DNA from: Bacteroidota bacterium
GTDB lineage: Bacteria; Bacteroidota; Bacteroidia; Flavobacteriales_F; PHOS-HE28
NCBI GenBank assembly: GCA_018266475.1
Contig: JAFEAI010000270.1
Coordinates: 1 to 53,070, forward strand
Direction: 5' to 3'
DNA length: 53,070 bases
Both the position numbers and the translations under genes were made by a program. Position 1 is the stretch's first letter. Every line of letters begins with the position of its first letter. Of the stretch, positions 5,395-14,322 are shown one piece after another. The notes beneath the pieces are model-generated. The model was not told the origin of the DNA, did no database searches, and saw only the letters and a program-made list of their open reading frames with translations.

Positions 5395-6687
5395 ATGGAG
5401 GTGTTATTGGTCCGTCGCAAGAACCGCTATTTGCCGGAGTGGTCACTGTTCATGTTGGTGGCGGTGCTCTCTTGGCGCGTGGCGTGGGCTATTGGCGAGG
5501 GCAACACCACGGATTTCTTCCGGCAGGCCTCCGATGGCCTTGGCTATTACCAGTGGTTGCCCGCTACGTTCATCACTGGTGATCTGGCGATGATGCCGTG
5601 GACCCATTTGCTGTCCGGCGACCGCGCTATCAGCCTGTTCACGTTGGGCGTGGCCGTACTGCAATTGCCGTTCTTCCTCCTGGCCGAATGGTTCACTTGG
5701 GTCTTCGGCTATCCGGACACCGGGTACAACCCGGCCAACGCCGTGTGCATGATGGCCAGCACGGCCGCGTATGCAGGGGCGGGGGCGGTGTTCAGCTTCA
5801 AGTTGGCGTGCCGGTACGGTACTGCGCAGGCCGCCCTGCTTGCCGTGGTCGCCATCTATGCCGGCAGCAACATCTTCTACTATGCCACGGACAAGGTGTT
5901 GATGTCCCATGTGTATTCCTATTTCCTGGTCTCGTTGTTCTGCTGGACGGGCCTGCGGATCATCGACGGGCCGCGCCGCATGCACGTGTTCCTGTTCATT
6001 TTCTCCGGTGCCTTGATGGTGCTGGTGAGGCAGTTGAATGTGGTCGTGCTCTTCTTTCCGCTATGGATGGCCTGGCGTTCCCCCGGGGGGGGCTGCGGCA
6101 CATTGCGGAACATGGGGCGGCACCGGGGCACCCTCATTGCCGCTGTGCTGATGGGTGCCGTTCCTTGGGTGTTGCAGTCCATGTACTGGCATTATATCAC
6201 GGGGCACTGGTACGCCAACGGATATGCGTACAAGGATGAGTTCTTCGATTTCAGCAGGATGGTGCCTGGCATGGTGCTCTTCAGCCCGCGGAACGGGTGG
6301 TTCGTCTTCAGCCCCATTTTCCTCTTCGTGGTGGGTGGACTGCTCGTGCAGGCCTGGCGCGGCAGGCGCCCCGCACGCCCCATCTTGCTGGTCCTGCTGC
6401 TCACCTTGCTACTGTACAGTGCTTGGTGGTCCTGGTGGCTTGGCGGGGCATACGGGCACCGGGGCTTTGTGGACCTGTACGGGCTGCTGGCCATCCCCCT
6501 CGCTTGGCTGTTTCGCTCCGTGATGCGGAGTTCCTGGGCGGTACGGATCTTCAGTGCCTTGCTCTTGTACGCACTGGTGCGGTTGAACTTCGGCATGATC
6601 GGGCACTTCGACAACACTTGGTACACGGAGGCTTCCACGTGGCCGCGCGTGCTGGAGGCAGTCGGTGAGATCGCTGCCGGAAAATGA
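5395..6687 (+). CDS. Polytopic membrane protein, paralogue of the upstream GT-C-like protein
   Basis: From the ATG at 5395 it encodes about 430 residues with roughly ten transmembrane segments. It begins MEVLLVRRKNRYLPEWS, and the open frame extends upstream to 5188 without a better start. The first outer loop contains TDFFRQASDGLGYYQWLP and the C-terminal half contains PRNGWFVFSPIFLF. Both align by eye with the divergent gene at 3405-5240. A C5G8 tract (6078-6090) lies in frame in the middle of the gene; slippage there would truncate the protein. The function is inferred as a lipid-linked sugar transferase or related membrane enzyme. Confidence 0.65.
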   Translation: MEVLLVRRKNRYLPEWSLFMLVAVLSWRVAWAIGEGNTTDFFRQASDGLGYYQWLPATFITGDLAMMPWTHLLSGDRAISLFTLGVAVLQLPFFLLAEWFTWVFGYPDTGYNPANAVCMMASTAAYAGAGAVFSFKLACRYGTAQAALLAVVAIYAGSNIFYYATDKVLMSHVYSYFLVSLFCWTGLRIIDGPRRMHVFLFIFSGALMVLVRQLNVVVLFFPLWMAWRSPGGGCGTLRNMGRHRGTLIAAVLMGAVPWVLQSMYWHYITGHWYANGYAYKDEFFDFSRMVPGMVLFSPRNGWFVFSPIFLFVVGGLLVQAWRGRRPARPILLVLLLTLLLYSAWWSWWLGGAYGHRGFVDLYGLLAIPLAWLFRSVMRSSWAVRIFSALLLYALVRLNFGMIGHFDNTWYTEASTWPRVLEAVGEIAAGK

Positions 6688-6799: not shown

Positions 6800-6811
6800 G
6801 GGGGGGGGGGG
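6800..6811. repeat. Homopolymer tract of 12 G (preceded by 6 C)
   Basis: Six C are followed directly by twelve G, 40 bp upstream of the preferred start of the DUF2079 gene. It is in frame with possible earlier ATG starts at 6767 and 6782. It is the longest homopolymer I found in the window and a candidate site of replication slippage or assembly error. Confidence 0.9.
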
Positions 6812-6850: not shown

Positions 6851-8320
6851 ATGGCCCGGTGGAATTGGCCGCTGCTCCTGGTGCTGTCGGTGTTCCTTGC
6901 GGTCTACGTGCTGATCAGCTTCGTTAACCACTGGTTCTTCCGCACCTATGCCCTTGATCTCGGGTTGTATACCAATGCCGCATGGAAGTATGCGCATGGC
7001 ATTGTGGCGGACCGGTCCCTTTTTACTTGGAACCATGATCCGTTGCTCACGGACCACTTCGACCTGCATCTCATCCTCTGGTCACCGTTGACCTACCTCT
7101 TCGGCGAGTGGACGTTGCTGGTGGTGCAAGTTGCCGCCGCGCTGTGGGGAGGTGTGGGGATGTATCGGCTTGCCATGGCCCTCACTACGGACCGCACCAC
7201 ATCCATGTTCCTCATGGCCTGTTGCCTCGGATCCTTCGGCATGATCCAAGCGTTCGGTTTCGATTTCCACAGCAACGTAGTGGCGGCAATGGCCTTGCCA
7301 TGGTATTTTTTAGCACTGTTCCGCAGGCGCAAGGGCCTCGCTTGGACTTGGCTCTTTTTCATGCTGGTCGCCAGAGAGAACATGGGGCTTTGGCTGGGCG
7401 TAACGGCTTTTGCCTCGATCGGCATTAACTGGATGGACAGCAGGATGCGCCGTACGCTGCTCTTGCAGGGGGGAACGGCATTGGTTTGGTCGGCCGTCGT
7501 CATTGTGTGGGTAATGCCGGCCATGGACGGCAACAAGATGAACTTCCAGACGCTCAGATACGCCCACCTCGGGCCCGATTGGGCCGGCATCGTGAAGAAT
7601 TTTCTGCGCCACCCGATGCACGTGCTGCAATACTTCGTGGTGCCGGTGGAGGACGAGGAGCACTTGGGGAATGCGTTGAAACTTGAGTACTACGTGGCGT
7701 TGCTGGCATCGGGGGCATGGGCGCTGCTGTTCAGGTGGCCGTACTTGCTGATGGCCCTTTCATTGCTTGCCCAGAAAATGCTCAGTTCGTCGGATGCCAT
7801 GTCGGGCCTGTTCTACCAGTATTCCGTGGAATTCGCCGGGTTGCTGCCGATCGCCATGCTGGACGTTCTTCAGCGGGTCCGTTCTTGGCCATGGCGGCAT
7901 GTGTTGGCGTTCCTGGGTTTCGGAGCGGTGGTTGGCACAACCATCTACACGTTGGACCTGCCTTTGGAGCATTGGAGCAACGCACATGGGGCACATGACC
8001 GCCTACGGTTCTACCAGGCGCGGCACTACCGGAGCAAACTCGACGTGGCAGGGGTGCACCGGGTGTTGAAACGGATACCGGCGGGTGCCTCCATTTCCGC
8101 TGTTTCGGGCTTGGTGCCGCATCTGGCGGGACGGGACCGGCTATATGCCTTCCCAATCATGCACGATGACCCGGAATACCTTGTGTTCCTGAAGGATGAG
8201 GTACCCTGGCCGCTTACGTCCGCGGAGTTCGGGCAAGCATTGGACCATTACCGTTCGTCTCCTGAATGGCGGCTGGCGGTGGACAGTGCCGGCGTACTGG
8301 TGTTCCAGCGGATGCCCTGA
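6851..8320 (+). CDS. DUF2079 family membrane protein
   Basis: From ATG 6851 it encodes 489 residues with about ten transmembrane segments. The pattern DLGLYTNAAW near the N-terminus, then NHDPLLTDHFDLHLILWSPL and a later FGFDFHSN, is typical of DUF2079. This is a polytopic family of unknown function that resembles GT-C glycosyltransferases in topology. An open frame reaches back to 6665, overlapping the preceding gene and spanning a G12 tract. I prefer the ATG at 6851 because it directly precedes the first membrane helix. The gene follows its paralogue-like neighbour in the same direction, with 163 bp between them. Confidence 0.75.
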   Translation: MARWNWPLLLVLSVFLAVYVLISFVNHWFFRTYALDLGLYTNAAWKYAHGIVADRSLFTWNHDPLLTDHFDLHLILWSPLTYLFGEWTLLVVQVAAALWGGVGMYRLAMALTTDRTTSMFLMACCLGSFGMIQAFGFDFHSNVVAAMALPWYFLALFRRRKGLAWTWLFFMLVARENMGLWLGVTAFASIGINWMDSRMRRTLLLQGGTALVWSAVVIVWVMPAMDGNKMNFQTLRYAHLGPDWAGIVKNFLRHPMHVLQYFVVPVEDEEHLGNALKLEYYVALLASGAWALLFRWPYLLMALSLLAQKMLSSSDAMSGLFYQYSVEFAGLLPIAMLDVLQRVRSWPWRHVLAFLGFGAVVGTTIYTLDLPLEHWSNAHGAHDRLRFYQARHYRSKLDVAGVHRVLKRIPAGASISAVSGLVPHLAGRDRLYAFPIMHDDPEYLVFLKDEVPWPLTSAEFGQALDHYRSSPEWRLAVDSAGVLVFQRMP

Positions 8321-8340: not shown

Positions 8341-9933
8341 TCAAGGCCCCACGCGAGATTCCCGGTTGCCGAACTTTTCCGTTTTCCGGTCACACCATTC
8401 CAAGATCCCCCCCCACGTGCTGATAGGATACAGCGTAATCTGACCAAGGTTGTAAGTGGCCACGCCGTCTGCCGCAGGCTTGAATAAGGCATCACCGGGG
8501 TCACCGCGTTTTACGGATAGGCGAAGACCCGATGCCATCCAGTGGTGAAAGCGGAAGTCGCCCATGAGTTCGAACGTGCCGTCATCATGTGTAACGGTGT
8601 GATAGGAGGCCGTCCAGTATTCGTTCCAGCCGATGATCACACCTTGGCGAACGGGGTTTCCATGCCAGTCCACCAACTTTCCGGTGATGCGCGAGCCATG
8701 GTGCCCCGAATAGTTGTAGTAGTTCGGCAGCTCTACGCAAGGCCCCTTCGGTGACCTGGGGTCAAAGGAGCGGAACACTTTAGCAACTGGTTTGGGCGTG
8801 CCTTCCACGGTGTCTCCGCGGGCGGTAAGCGATCTGCCGTTGCGGGAAAGCAGGCCCATGTATGCCGCATGGAAGTTATGCCAGCGCACGTCCTTGTATT
8901 GCCACCAGGAATAGCCGATCGCGCCGCAGGCACGCGCTTGTGCCAAGGTCCGCATTGCAAAGGCTGTTTGGGCGGCGTATGGCACGGAATCATTGTCGGC
9001 AGGTATGGCCGTTTCGCCCACCATCCAAGGCACGTTAAGCTCCCTTCCGTACCAAGCTAGTTCATTTAGCACCTGGTCGGGCTCATATTCATAGGGGTGG
9101 AACGAAATGAAATCCACATCGATCAGCTCGGGGTCGAATTCAAAGGTTTCGCGGATGCCGGTGAGGCCAAGCGTGAAGAGGTGGTCAGGTGCATGGGCGT
9201 CCACAATTTTCCGCCATCGCGCCACGGTGCGTATCGCCTCCTGTTTGGGCCGTTCCAGCCGGTCGAAATAGAGCGGCTCGTTGAAGAGGTCAAAAGCGAG
9301 GATCGCCGTATTGTTCCGGAAGTGGTCGAGGTAGCGGGCCAGGTATCCTTCGTTCTCGGGGATATCCAGGTACACAGTGCTGAGCGGGATCACCTTCAAC
9401 CCGCATTCTGCACAAATGCTGAAGAGCTCGTCCAAGGCGTGGAGATATAGAGGCCACGTTCCCGGGTCGGAAAAGAGCAGGCTTGTGTCGTGCTCAAGTG
9501 AGATCGCGGCTTTTATGCCCAAGGAGTCCTTGTGGTCGTCCATGCCCAAGTCATTCCAGATGCCCACGATCCGCACGCTGTTGAACCCCATTTCACGGAT
9601 CAGGCGCATGTCTGCCCGAAATCGTTGCAGTGCCGTGTCCTTTGGGCAAAAGTGGCCTTCCGGTCGGTTTTGATAATCGGCTGATGGGCCGAACCAGAAG
9701 TCATTGCCCCCGGAGCGGGCACCGGCAATGTAATTTACGGCCAAGGGAAAGAAGGCGCTGTCGTTCAGTATGAAGCCTGACGGGCCCAACTGCACCATAT
9801 CCTTTTTTTTCGCACGATGGTGCGGGCCGGGCCTAAGGCAGGAAACGAGTGAAAATGCCATTGCAAGAATTGCAGTGGCCCGGATGAAAGCACAGCCCTG
9901 TACGCTGTTCTTGGCGATGGACAGGTGTTTCAT
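8341..9933 (-). CDS. Lipoprotein with GH5-like (cellulase-fold) glycoside hydrolase domain
   Basis: A 530-residue protein with a signal peptide ending in a lipobox (LAMAFSLVSC). It is followed by a TIM-barrel region with MGFNSVRIVGIW, the acid/base motif FDLFNEPLY and the nucleophile motif PWMVGETAIP. NEP and the later GE pair are the catalytic glutamates of clan GH-A families such as GH5. The last 150 residues (about 385-530) look like a separate beta domain with carboxypeptidase-regulatory features (ITGKLVDWHGNPVRQGVII). It probably acts on a glycan at the cell surface. A G8 tract on the coding strand (8407-8414) lies near the 3' end within STWGGILEW. The gene is surrounded by glycosyltransferases. 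Confidence 0.8.
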   Translation of the reverse strand: MKHLSIAKNSVQGCAFIRATAILAMAFSLVSCLRPGPHHRAKKKDMVQLGPSGFILNDSAFFPLAVNYIAGARSGGNDFWFGPSADYQNRPEGHFCPKDTALQRFRADMRLIREMGFNSVRIVGIWNDLGMDDHKDSLGIKAAISLEHDTSLLFSDPGTWPLYLHALDELFSICAECGLKVIPLSTVYLDIPENEGYLARYLDHFRNNTAILAFDLFNEPLYFDRLERPKQEAIRTVARWRKIVDAHAPDHLFTLGLTGIRETFEFDPELIDVDFISFHPYEYEPDQVLNELAWYGRELNVPWMVGETAIPADNDSVPYAAQTAFAMRTLAQARACGAIGYSWWQYKDVRWHNFHAAYMGLLSRNGRSLTARGDTVEGTPKPVAKVFRSFDPRSPKGPCVELPNYYNYSGHHGSRITGKLVDWHGNPVRQGVIIGWNEYWTASYHTVTHDDGTFELMGDFRFHHWMASGLRLSVKRGDPGDALFKPAADGVATYNLGQITLYPISTWGGILEWCDRKTEKFGNRESRVGP

Positions 9934-9964: not shown

Positions 9965-10672
9965 TCACAGCCCGTATTTCACAATGCACCAGATCGCCCG
10001 GAAGCCATCCCGCCAGCCGATCTTCTTCCCCTCGGCATACGTGCGGCCGTAGTAGCTGATGCCTACTTCATAGATGCGCGCGCCCTTCACCCGCGCCAGC
10101 TTCGCCGTCACCTCCGGCTCAAAGCCGAAGCGCTTTTCCTTCAGGTCAAGGCTTTTGGCAATGTCGCTGCGGATCAATTTGTAGCAGGTCTCCATATCGG
10201 TAAGGTTCAAATTATTGAATGCATTGGAGAGCTGCGTGAGGAACTTGTTGCCGATGCTGTGCCAGAAGAAGAGGATGCGGTGCGGGTGGTGCCCCATGAA
10301 GCGCGAGCCGAACACCACGTCGGCAAAGCCTTCCACCACTGGGCGCAGCAGGTCGTTGTATTCACGCGGGTCATATTCCAGGTCGGCGTCCTGCACGATA
10401 AGGTATTCGCCGGTGGCCTCCCGGATTCCGCGGTGGATGGCCGCACCTTTGCCCATGTTGCGGGGCTGCTGGATAAAGCGGATGCCCATGGCCGGATTGG
10501 CGGCCATGTAGCGCTCCACGGCGGCTACCGTGCCGTCGGTGCTGCCATCGTTCACGATGATCACCTCTTTGGCAATGGCGTTCATCAGCACCACATCCCG
10601 CACCTTGTCCAGGATCAGGTGGATGGTGCGCTCCTCGTTGTAGGCCGGGATGATGATGGAAAGGGTGTTCAT
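9965..10672 (-). CDS. Glycosyltransferase family 2, dolichyl/polyprenyl-phosphate mannosyltransferase-like
   Basis: A 235-residue GT-A enzyme. It has IIPAYNEERTI at the N-terminus, VNDGSTDGT, the DxD-like QDADLEYDP and GSRFMG, which is the DPM1/GtrB arrangement. There is no C-terminal membrane domain, so it resembles the soluble DPM1 type. Such enzymes load a sugar onto polyprenyl phosphate at the cytoplasmic face. The GT-C-like membrane proteins around it would be logical users of that donor; this link is inferred from position. The ATG at 10672 is chosen over an in-frame TTG nine bases upstream. Confidence 0.88.
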   Translation of the reverse strand: MNTLSIIIPAYNEERTIHLILDKVRDVVLMNAIAKEVIIVNDGSTDGTVAAVERYMAANPAMGIRFIQQPRNMGKGAAIHRGIREATGEYLIVQDADLEYDPREYNDLLRPVVEGFADVVFGSRFMGHHPHRILFFWHSIGNKFLTQLSNAFNNLNLTDMETCYKLIRSDIAKSLDLKEKRFGFEPEVTAKLARVKGARIYEVGISYYGRTYAEGKKIGWRDGFRAIWCIVKYGL

Positions 10673-10781
10673 AGTGCGCAAACATCGGATATTATTTCAT
10701 GCGCATTGTAGAGTTCAATGTGCATTGCCAAGAAACAAGTTGCTGCAGGAGGGTTGTACTCAGACCTGCTTGTCGAAATCC

Positions 10782-11522
10782 TCATTGGAGCACCCACAGG
10801 TTGAGGTCGTCCAAGTACATTACGGTGTCGTCAGTGAGCGGCCATGCCTCCAGGTGGATTTCATCTCCGGGCAAGAGCGGGAAATTGAGGTACACCGGAA
10901 GCGCTACTTGTGTCCATCTTCCAAATTGGTTCATTTGCAGCCCGGAGTTTGCATCCGCCCGGGCAATTTCTACGGGACCCCTTGTTATGCGGACAAGCAG
11001 GGCCGTCCAATTGAGGCGGCTTGGTTGCTGGATCATCGCCGTGGCCAGCACCTGCAGGTCAGGGCCTCGCAGGGTGTCCGTTACAATGCGGACAAGGGGT
11101 TGGGTGAACCTGGAGGCCGCATCAAACCTCACGCTGTATTTGCCGCTTACATGCGCTTCCGCAGTGCGGCCGGGCACACTCGCAGCCTCCATGTCCATGC
11201 TGTCATGGTAGATCACCTTTGGGACTTCATGGTGGCGCAGATCGCGGTATAGCCTGGTGCCGGAACCGGGTGAACGGTAAAGCAGTATCCAGTTTGAGGG
11301 GTCTGCACGTGCCGTGTCAGGCTCTTCCACGATGTAGAAATCCGCTGGTGCAATAGGACCTTGCCCTGCCATGGGCGTGGCAATGAGCCACTGCATACTA
11401 TCCTGTATTTGGTAGTAGGGGATGCTGCCCCAGCATTCAAACCCTGAACGGACCAGTATTGCCGGTCGCATCGGATCAAGCGGAGCATGGTACGCACGGA
11501 TCATGGAGAGCATTTTGCCCAC
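10782..11522 (-). CDS. C-terminal part of a frameshifted GT-C-like membrane protein
   Basis: An open frame of about 246 residues with only a GTG as possible start. It has no membrane helices and reads like the soluble C-terminal domain of the neighbouring gene at 14323-16113. The segment ILVRSGFECWGSIPYY corresponds by eye to ILLSGSEHFAPCWAFH, and SNWILLYRSPG to SGAVLLIRDRP. It overlaps the end of the membrane part (11476-12711) at a G8 tract. Removing one G would join the two frames into a single protein of about 640 residues. It is therefore better read as the second half of one gene than as an independent gene. Confidence 0.7.
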   Translation of the reverse strand: MGKMLSMIRAYHAPLDPMRPAILVRSGFECWGSIPYYQIQDSMQWLIATPMAGQGPIAPADFYIVEEPDTARADPSNWILLYRSPGSGTRLYRDLRHHEVPKVIYHDSMDMEAASVPGRTAEAHVSGKYSVRFDAASRFTQPLVRIVTDTLRGPDLQVLATAMIQQPSRLNWTALLVRITRGPVEIARADANSGLQMNQFGRWTQVALPVYLNFPLLPGDEIHLEAWPLTDDTVMYLDDLNLWVLQ

Positions 11523-12711
11523 CCCCCCCGGCAGGTTTCCATTCCAGGGCGTAGGTCAGATTGATGGTCCATATCTGGTGGAACAGCAGTGGAAGGCACA
11601 GCAAGCAGGCTGCCACCACCGGAATGCGGGATCTTCCTGGCCAGGCCACGAGGCCTGAAACTGGTACGAAGAGCGCGAGAGGCAAAAGAAATAGCGCAGT
11701 GCGTGTGCGCGGCATAGGCGTGCCCAACAAGAGGTGCTGGAGCGCGAACGAGGCGACGCAGGAGACAACGATAATTGTGCCGAAGGCCATGGGGCGCAGG
11801 CGATGGGCCCATCCATTGCGGAAGGCAAAACCGACGCAAGCCATGGAGCATGCGGCGAGCAAGGCGATCACAAGACCAACCATTGGCTGAGGCGTGATTC
11901 CGTATGCTTGGCCATAAAGCAGACGCATGCCCAAGGTCTCCATGGTGCAGTCCCATAGGCTGTCGCAGCCGAAGTAAAGCGCTCCCCCCATGGACAGCCG
12001 CACTGCGAATGGTACCACTGCGACCAAAGCAAGACCTGTTCCACCGATAAGCAGCCCGGCATGCCGCCATGGGGGAACCTTGTGGTGACGAAGCGTGTCG
12101 AACACCCATATCAAAATGAATGCAGCTGTAAATGCAAGGAGGTAGTTCAGCATGATAAGATGGGACAAGGTGGCAAGCACTGCCGCGGCCACAGCAAGGC
12201 CCAAGTCGCGCAGTTGCCGACCATCCGATAAGTAACGGGTAGCAAGCCAGAGGCTCAGCATCATCATGCCATTGGCGATGCCGTATCCACGGGCCAAGGA
12301 GAAGAAATCGAGCAGATAGGGGTGTGCGTTCAATAGGAGAAAGGCAGCTATGGAAAGCACCAAGGTGCGCGCCCGCAGGGCAATGCGTGCACTGGCATAA
12401 AGGTAGATCGCGTGGGCCAGGAGCACGGGAAGCCGCAAGGCCAATTCGCTGTTCCCGAACAGTGTGTTGGACAGGATCATGCCCCATACGTTCAACGGGT
12501 GGTAGTTGGCCCCCATCTGGTCATAGGCACGGGAGATGAACACCTTGGGGATCACGTGGTGGATGTAAGTCCAGCTTTCATCCCACGTGAACGAAACGGT
12601 AATGGCCCGCAGTATGGTGTAGGTGAGCAGCGCGATTGCGCATGTCGCTATTGCAACAGGCGCAATGTCGAACCTGCTTGCACGTGACTGTCGGTCGCTG
12701 CTGCGTTCCAT
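11476..12711 (-). CDS. GT-C-like membrane glycosyltransferase, N-terminal membrane part (frameshifted)
   Basis: From ATG 12711 it encodes 411 residues with about ten transmembrane helices. An alternative ATG at 12810 would overlap the preceding gene by 43 bp. The first outer loop carries FTWDESWTY and then GANYHPLNVWG and LFGNSELALRLPVLL. That is the DE motif and HPxL...LFGxSExALRLP pattern of GT39/PMT-type glycosyltransferases. The frame ends shortly after a G8 tract (11522-11529 on the plus strand) with a short non-homologous tail. The natural continuation, a soluble C-terminal domain, is in the next frame at 10782-11522. The paralogue at 14323-16113 has both parts in one frame. Confidence 0.72.
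   Translation of the reverse strand: MERSSDRQSRASRFDIAPVAIATCAIALLTYTILRAITVSFTWDESWTYIHHVIPKVFISRAYDQMGANYHPLNVWGMILSNTLFGNSELALRLPVLLAHAIYLYASARIALRARTLVLSIAAFLLLNAHPYLLDFFSLARGYGIANGMMMLSLWLATRYLSDGRQLRDLGLAVAAAVLATLSHLIMLNYLLAFTAAFILIWVFDTLRHHKVPPWRHAGLLIGGTGLALVAVVPFAVRLSMGGALYFGCDSLWDCTMETLGMRLLYGQAYGITPQPMVGLVIALLAACSMACVGFAFRNGWAHRLRPMAFGTIIVVSCVASFALQHLLLGTPMPRTRTALFLLPLALFVPVSGLVAWPGRSRIPVVAACLLCLPLLFHQIWTINLTYALEWKPAGGGGQNALHDPCVPCSA
11522..11529. repeat. C8/G8 homopolymer at a frame break
   Basis: Eight C on the plus strand (eight G in the coding sense). The upstream frame reads GGG GGG GGT GGG and ends soon after. With seven G the reading would pass to GTG GGC AAA ATG and continue through the 10782-11522 frame. 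This places the frame break exactly at the tract. Confidence 0.85.
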
Positions 12712-12767: not shown

Positions 12768-14162
12768 TTAACGAGGTTGTTCCGCTGATTTGAAAGTGCG
12801 TTGTGCCCATTTCGTTTGCAATAGCACCAGGCACGCAGCAAGTACAGGCAGCCAGGCCACGCGGGATTGAAGCCTGTCGAACACGTTGGCCAAGCTGGCG
12901 GTGACCACGGCGTTCAACACCACCCACGCCAACAACATGGGCACCAGCAACCGCAGTTCCTTCTGGTGCATCCATGCTGCCCTTTTCCAATACAGGACGA
13001 ACAGGGCGAGCACCAAGGTGAACCGGACTACGCGGTTCTGAACGCCCAGGTCCCACCATTCGCCTTTGGCTTGCCGAGAGGTGGAGTAGGAAGACAATTC
13101 CCAAGGAAGGCGTTCCACAATCTCATAATACGGGGCGGATCCTTCCGCATACGGGGACAGGCCAGAGGCCGCAGATACTTGAAATAGTTGCGTGGCCGAT
13201 GCTATCATGCTGCTGCGTGCGAAGCGTCCAATGAACACAGGTTCTGCGAACAGGTCCTGAACCGCCGGGGCGACCGCTGAGTCGGCCTTGGTAAGACTTG
13301 GTCCCAGCCTGGCGATGATGCTATGGTCCCCCCAAATGAATTGTGTTGCTTCCATGGGCAGCTCATCCTTGAACGGGCATAGCGCGTAGTCGTGCGAGTC
13401 ACAATGTTCCCTCAGGAAATCGCCGAGCATGCCGTTCTCGCACAGCCGCGCGGCCAGAAACATGTGGCGCGTAGGTGAAAATGACGTTCCTAACCCGCTC
13501 TTGGCATTATACACCGTGATCAAGGTGATCCCTCCGGCCAGTACGGCCAAGGTCGCGGCCAAGCTCGCCCATGGATATGGCCGGTTGCCACTTCCCCGTT
13601 GGATCCAGTTGGCGAGCGCCAGGCCGGCAAGCAGGATCAGCACCATGGGGACATGCGCATAGTGCGCCATAAGGAAGAACAACAAGCAGGTCCATAAAAA
13701 TCCGCGTTTCACCGGACCTAATTCCGGCGCGCGCAAGATCAGGTACAAGACCAGGATTATCATCGGAGTGATAATGTCCGGCATCACTTGCGCCGCATAC
13801 CATGGCATGCTAGTGAAGGCCACAAGCACTAAGGACATGGGGATGTAGACGGCACCAAGCTGCATGCCCGGTGGCAGCACCTTGCGCAGTACCTCCAATA
13901 GCAGCCATGCCAACATGAAGGCCTGGAAGATCACCAAGGTCCATAACGTGTCCTGCCATGTAACTGCACGGATAATCAAGCCGTAGGCTACGGGCCGGTC
14001 CGCAGGGGGGACCAAAGTGAAGGCCGAGCGGATGTAGGTCCCCGAATCGGAGAATACCAACGGGTAGCCGTTGTAAAAGGCCAGGGCGGAGATCAGGAAG
14101 GTTGAACAGAGCAGGTAGAGCGCAATGCGTATTTTGTGCTTGTGGTCGAGCATGCGGCCCAT
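12768..14162 (-). CDS. Polytopic membrane protein of unknown function
   Basis: From ATG 14162 it encodes 464 residues. The frame extends to 14255, but residues before MGRMLDHKHK look non-coding. About ten hydrophobic helices are visible. After the first helix comes FYNGYPLVFSDSGTYIRSAF and later PWYAAQVMPDIITPMII, a pattern with an acidic residue in the first outer loop as in GT-C proteins. A large loop (about residues 215-370) contains the cysteines CENGML and CDSHDYALCPF. I do not recognise a named family. It lies in the same minus-strand run as two GT39-like genes and probably serves the same surface-glycan function. Confidence 0.6.
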   Translation of the reverse strand: MGRMLDHKHKIRIALYLLCSTFLISALAFYNGYPLVFSDSGTYIRSAFTLVPPADRPVAYGLIIRAVTWQDTLWTLVIFQAFMLAWLLLEVLRKVLPPGMQLGAVYIPMSLVLVAFTSMPWYAAQVMPDIITPMIILVLYLILRAPELGPVKRGFLWTCLLFFLMAHYAHVPMVLILLAGLALANWIQRGSGNRPYPWASLAATLAVLAGGITLITVYNAKSGLGTSFSPTRHMFLAARLCENGMLGDFLREHCDSHDYALCPFKDELPMEATQFIWGDHSIIARLGPSLTKADSAVAPAVQDLFAEPVFIGRFARSSMIASATQLFQVSAASGLSPYAEGSAPYYEIVERLPWELSSYSTSRQAKGEWWDLGVQNRVVRFTLVLALFVLYWKRAAWMHQKELRLLVPMLLAWVVLNAVVTASLANVFDRLQSRVAWLPVLAACLVLLQTKWAQRTFKSAEQPR

Positions 14163-14322
14163 GGTAAGATGTCTGGCAGGTTCAGTTGTTCGGAATGGGT
14201 CTTTTCGTTCAAGCACGCCAAGGTGGGTCGGGTCTTTCAAATGGCTACCGTGCAATGGCGAATGTATGCCCCATCCAAGAACAGGGGTGACTTTTGATAT
14301 GGCCCGCTAATTCCCATGTGGC

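Follow-up and report, generated by a model that had tools for sequence, protein, structure and literature searches.

Slippage switches have been described in other bacteria at tract lengths that include eight guanines; Campylobacter jejuni NCTC11168 is described as having 29 loci that carry G/C tracts of at least 7 (PMC4965091). For Bacteroides, the switches given in the consulted portion of a recent review are DNA inversions (PMC11868660). Frameshifts confined to a single genome (singletons) were, in a GeneTack survey, due in most cases to sequencing error or to indel mutation (PMC3711429). Here we consider a G8 tract in a glycosyltransferase gene from an environmental genome assembly of a Bacteroidota bacterium. 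The window, that is, the whole stretch of DNA that was analyzed, is contig 189 in full (53,070 nucleotides), and belongs to a 3.57-Mb draft genome of 283 contigs.

Coordinates are collected in Table 1. The preliminary description held that the membrane and soluble parts of the gene occupy adjacent frames and would be joined if one G were lost, and both the ORFs and the alignment bear this out: the two minus-strand ORFs overlap at the tract, and the joint obtained with the tract shortened by one base, EWKPAGGVGKML, aligns without gaps to EWKPEGEVSKML and EWKPSGEASRML of intact relatives. Due to the G8, the window gene is one base off register from its orthologues, and the tail that the 411-aa ORF has beyond the tract does not match their register. 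The tract lies mid-gene, near codon 395 in a gene of about 640. The gene has in common with contingency loci a simple repeat inside the coding sequence that determines the frame by its length, and two halves that are both under constraint.

Table 1. Coordinates of the features discussed; positions are those of the window unless a genome and contig are given.
Feature	Position	Strand	Remarks
G8 homopolymer tract, point of frame change	11522..11529	-	coding sense; plus-strand letters CCCCCCCC
5' part, membrane domain of GT-C-like (PMT_2-like) glycosyltransferase, 411 aa	11476..12711	-	starts at ATG 12711
3' part, soluble C-terminal domain, 246 aa	10782..11522	-	no stop, Pfam match or transmembrane helix
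Glycos_transf_2 protein, polyprenyl-phosphate sugar synthase-like	9965..10681	-	conserved neighbor; 86-93% identity in relatives
GH5-like (Cellulase) protein	8341..9933	-	conserved neighbor; second G8 at 8407-8414 in variable C-terminal tail
Membrane protein without Pfam match	12768..14255	-	same cluster in relatives
Single-frame paralogue of membrane part, 596 aa	14323..16113	-	own soluble part not recognizably akin to 10782-11522
SprB-family tract (L142)	G000:C152:2523-2537		
SprB-family tract (L143)	G000:C136:45-63		
SprB-family tracts (L109, L113, L153, L161, L196, L211, L212, L214, L216, L217)			
SprB-family tracts (L218, L219, L220, L221, L222, L225, L228, L231)			

Five same-genus orthologues (in genomes G004, G006, G013, G022 and G032) were used for comparison, and all are continuous across the joint, in agreement with the earlier view that the window gene is split. 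Both halves lie within one frame of 643 to 811 codons in G004, G006, G013 and G022; the G032 frame, cut by a contig end to 464 codons, is nonetheless fused across the joint. Four of the five have EWKP(S/E)GE at the joint, followed by two variable residues, K or R, and then ML; the joint of G022 differs from the other four (EWKPSGELRHIL). The codons used there by relatives are GGT/GGG GAA, and none of the five has a G run at this position. The comparison of tract length in related genomes that the preliminary description had proposed thus found the tract absent from every orthologue, and retention of the tract in relatives, a further mark of a contingency locus, was not seen. The surrounding cluster of scoB, glycosyltransferase, membrane protein, GT2 and GH5-like genes is common to the relatives. 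A scan of the genome contigs gave a single distant match.

It had also been claimed that the neighboring paralogue has both parts fused, which holds only in part. The paralogue is indeed one frame, and its membrane part is related (33% identity over 120 aa; profile comparison probability 98%); its C-terminal part gives no detectable BLAST match to the soluble half (E 0.14). The real evidence for a fused ancestral gene comes from the orthologues.

The soluble half of the window gene was compared with those of the other taxa. It contains no stops, and its branch, set against that of the membrane half, is not longer than in other taxa: the values are 0.62 for the soluble and 0.43 for the membrane part in the window, and 0.71 and 0.35, respectively, in G004. 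Of 52 columns that do not vary among the other taxa, it retains 40 (0.77, where the other taxa range from 0.80 to 0.93), and it is 45% identical to G004, more than the 39% shared by G004 and G006. Further decay behind a fixed G8, named beforehand as an outcome that would speak against a switch, is thus not what is found; the second half is intact and conserved about as in other lineages. Because the soluble half is undecayed, the break is either recent, reversible or not real.

In GT-C enzymes the soluble C-terminal domain usually lies outside the membrane. For the membrane part of the window gene, hydropathy predicts about nine helices, with FTWDESW, and so the acidic pair typical of GT-C, following helix 1. 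The Pfam match to PMT_2 has an E value of 1.2e-4 and 22.8 bits, below the curated cut-off of 26.1; PMT_2 was matched by three of six orthologues and homologues, with a best E value of 4e-6. A search of the PDB by sequence returned no relative. The last predicted helix extends to about residue 383, some eleven residues short of the G8, and the ORF as written stops about 28 residues past that helix. The allele as written would probably encode an impaired enzyme, since the membrane domain is kept but the soluble domain is lost. By analogy with the GT-C layout, the soluble domain should belong outside the membrane and be useless if made alone.

To place the tract in context, all exact G8 runs in the genome were considered. 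There are 39 per 3.57 Mb, whereas about 300 would be expected from base composition (our own estimate), as is expected if coding sequence avoids G8. Overlapping G8 matches in the window number 8, compared with 9.5 expected from shuffles, and a tract of this length is within chance expectation for the GC-rich window. Frames around the runs were assigned using a finder trained on ten ORFs that were treated as genes, together with open-frame lengths; an earlier codon-usage finder trained on all long window ORFs was too weak and was replaced. Eighteen of the 39 runs are in frame inside genes, with coding signal on both sides, and the others are between genes, near gene ends or unclear, except that the run at 11522-11529 joins two long same-strand ORFs of different frames, the only one of the 39 to do so. 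A second candidate for a gene broken at a G8 (L078) was rejected because it is the end of a shikimate-kinase-like gene beside a converging gene (names read from sequence). The G8 at 8407 is uninformative, being located in a part of the GH5-like protein, its tail, that is not conserved.

Separately, three of the 39 exact runs (6085-6092, 8407-8414 and 11522-11529) and a G12 form a mild cluster within 5.5 kb. The G12, at 6800-6811, lies 39 nt ahead of ATG 6851 of a DUF2079 membrane protein, and an upstream ATG (6767 or 6782) reads in frame through it. Because homology to most relatives begins near 6851, the G12 may be part of a leader or of an extended N terminus.

CHU_C and SprB, domains that belong to surface proteins of the type IX kind, point to Bacteroidota. 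Longer tracts were surveyed across 39 genomes of the genus, starting from those of at least 14. These led to a family of secreted proteins of about 430 residues with SprB repeats (Pfam SprB E 1e-16), widespread in the genus. Of the family members, 31 had enough 5' sequence to be scored, and 20 of these have a simple repeat within the 66 nt before the signal-peptide core. The number expected from 169 kb of bulk sequence is about 0.05, but the comparison should be taken as a guide and not as a probability, because members are mutually dependent and some were found via their tracts (the best match per genome was picked regardless of tracts). The position of the repeat is constant and its type varies among members (G8-G19, C8-C16, (AC)10 and 7-base repeats). 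In three near-identical sequences, from G024, G027 and G026 (L219, L220 and L228), the tracts are G10, G9 and G8, respectively. Reading from the nearest upstream ATG, most copies would be “off” and few “on”, a count that is uncertain because the start codons are putative. A looser signal-peptide test around tracts of at least 12 (14 of 46, compared with 21% of random positions) was not specific and was dropped in favor of the single-family test.

It is likely, on these grounds, that the SprB-repeat surface-protein family undergoes slipped-strand switching via tracts just after the start codon. If so, slippage would switch a major family of surface proteins in a Bacteroidota genus that has been little studied. 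The literature searched, whose coverage was incomplete, yielded no report of slippage switching of such surface proteins in Bacteroidota. Other tracts were noted near genes for secreted proteins. In a second secreted-protein family (AQDNLWVNGNQLLDF), C15 and C12 occur just past a start codon (L119 in G002 and L183 in G018). A G12/C12 at G000:C239:10559-10570 (L054) is just upstream of a secreted metalloprotease-like gene. Adjacent double tracts of poly-A/poly-C and poly-T/poly-G (L132, L114) are found at the 5' ends of secreted-protein ORFs, and may be assembly artefacts.

For the glycosyltransferase, the likely explanation is a recent one-base length change, whether genuine or introduced by assembly, in a homopolymer that came about by chance in the window lineage. 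The ancestral gene would have been a conserved, one-piece GT-C-type (PMT_2-like) membrane glycosyltransferase. Neutral codon changes in the window lineage would then have created the G homopolymer where relatives have G-E-V/A codons, after which a one-base length change would have split the gene, leaving the tract one base too long for the frame. This change could be a slippage allele actually present in the population that was sampled, or a sequencing or assembly error in the consensus alone. We infer that the split is recent and is not an evolved switch. Note that the intact soluble half counts against this explanation to the extent that it also suits a gene switching back and forth. Also counting against it are the length of the tract, at which slippage switches are described in other bacteria, and the putative slippage switches in other genes of the genus.

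It is quite possible that the change is a real frameshift mutation in the strain, either a transient allele or a young pseudogene. The evidence is that shared with the general explanation above, and the neighboring GT-C-like paralogues might render the loss tolerable; the lack of further decay speaks against it. It is possible that the organism's gene is unbroken and that an assembly or base-calling error has given the consensus one G too many. A draft genome in 283 contigs, an undecayed second half and a frameshift seen in a single genome (compare PMC3711429) all favor such an error. Against it, the 18 other genic G8 runs of the assembly are in frame, so miscounted G8 runs are not a general feature of the assembly, though a single error among about twenty genic tracts is possible.

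The preliminary description offered two readings, assembly error or phase variation. The first remains, together with an ordinary recent frameshift, and the second is unsupported. It is unlikely that a surface-glycan gene has here evolved phase variation by slipped-strand mispairing, with fast changes in length turning the soluble domain on and off. In favor of such a switch, the G8 is in a gene that probably acts in the cell envelope and whose two halves are both intact, and SprB-family genes of the genus have suitable repeat tracts. The switch is nevertheless the least supported of the readings under consideration (error, frameshift allele and switch), because the tract occurs in none of the five orthologues, is mid-gene where the putative switches of the genus directly follow the start codon of secreted proteins, is short, at a length not above chance in the window, and is known from one genome. 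The SprB-family loci raise the prior for slippage switching in the lineage, but the window glycosyltransferase is without the marks of that set. It is unlikely that a genus-wide system of slipped-strand surface switches includes this G8 as a young, weak member that toggles the enzyme. Programmed frameshifting or transcriptional slippage yielding a fused protein, or an independent start of the soluble half (GTG 11522 or a later ATG), is very improbable: the homopolymer does sit at the frame change and the ORFs do overlap, but relatives have one plain frame without a slippery site, and a soluble half made alone would stay in the cytoplasm, since neither signal nor transmembrane segment is predicted for it, whereas as part of a fusion of GT-C topology it should lie outside the membrane.

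By itself, the G8 frameshift, which looks like an ordinary one, serves as a caution that a homopolymer together with a split gene in one draft genome is no evidence for phase variation, and a suspected switch can be tested cheaply using orthologues and a genome-wide survey of equal tracts. Compared with the PMT_2 and ArnT-like members of the GT-C superfamily, the window gene differs in its sub-threshold Pfam match and in having no PDB relative by sequence; it resembles them in a multi-helix membrane domain, an acidic (DE) motif that follows helix 1 and, as seen in its relatives, a soluble C-terminal domain. The poly-G phase-variable glycosyltransferases of Campylobacter jejuni likewise have a run of Gs within the coding sequence of a gene for glycan synthesis, where one-base changes in length shift the frame. 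The window tract departs from these in its absence from orthologues, its chance length in the window and its occurrence in one genome. The GeneTack survey (PMC3711429) used complete genomes whereas the window is from a draft assembly, but the singleton frameshift genes described there are like the window gene in being broken in one genome and whole in its relatives.
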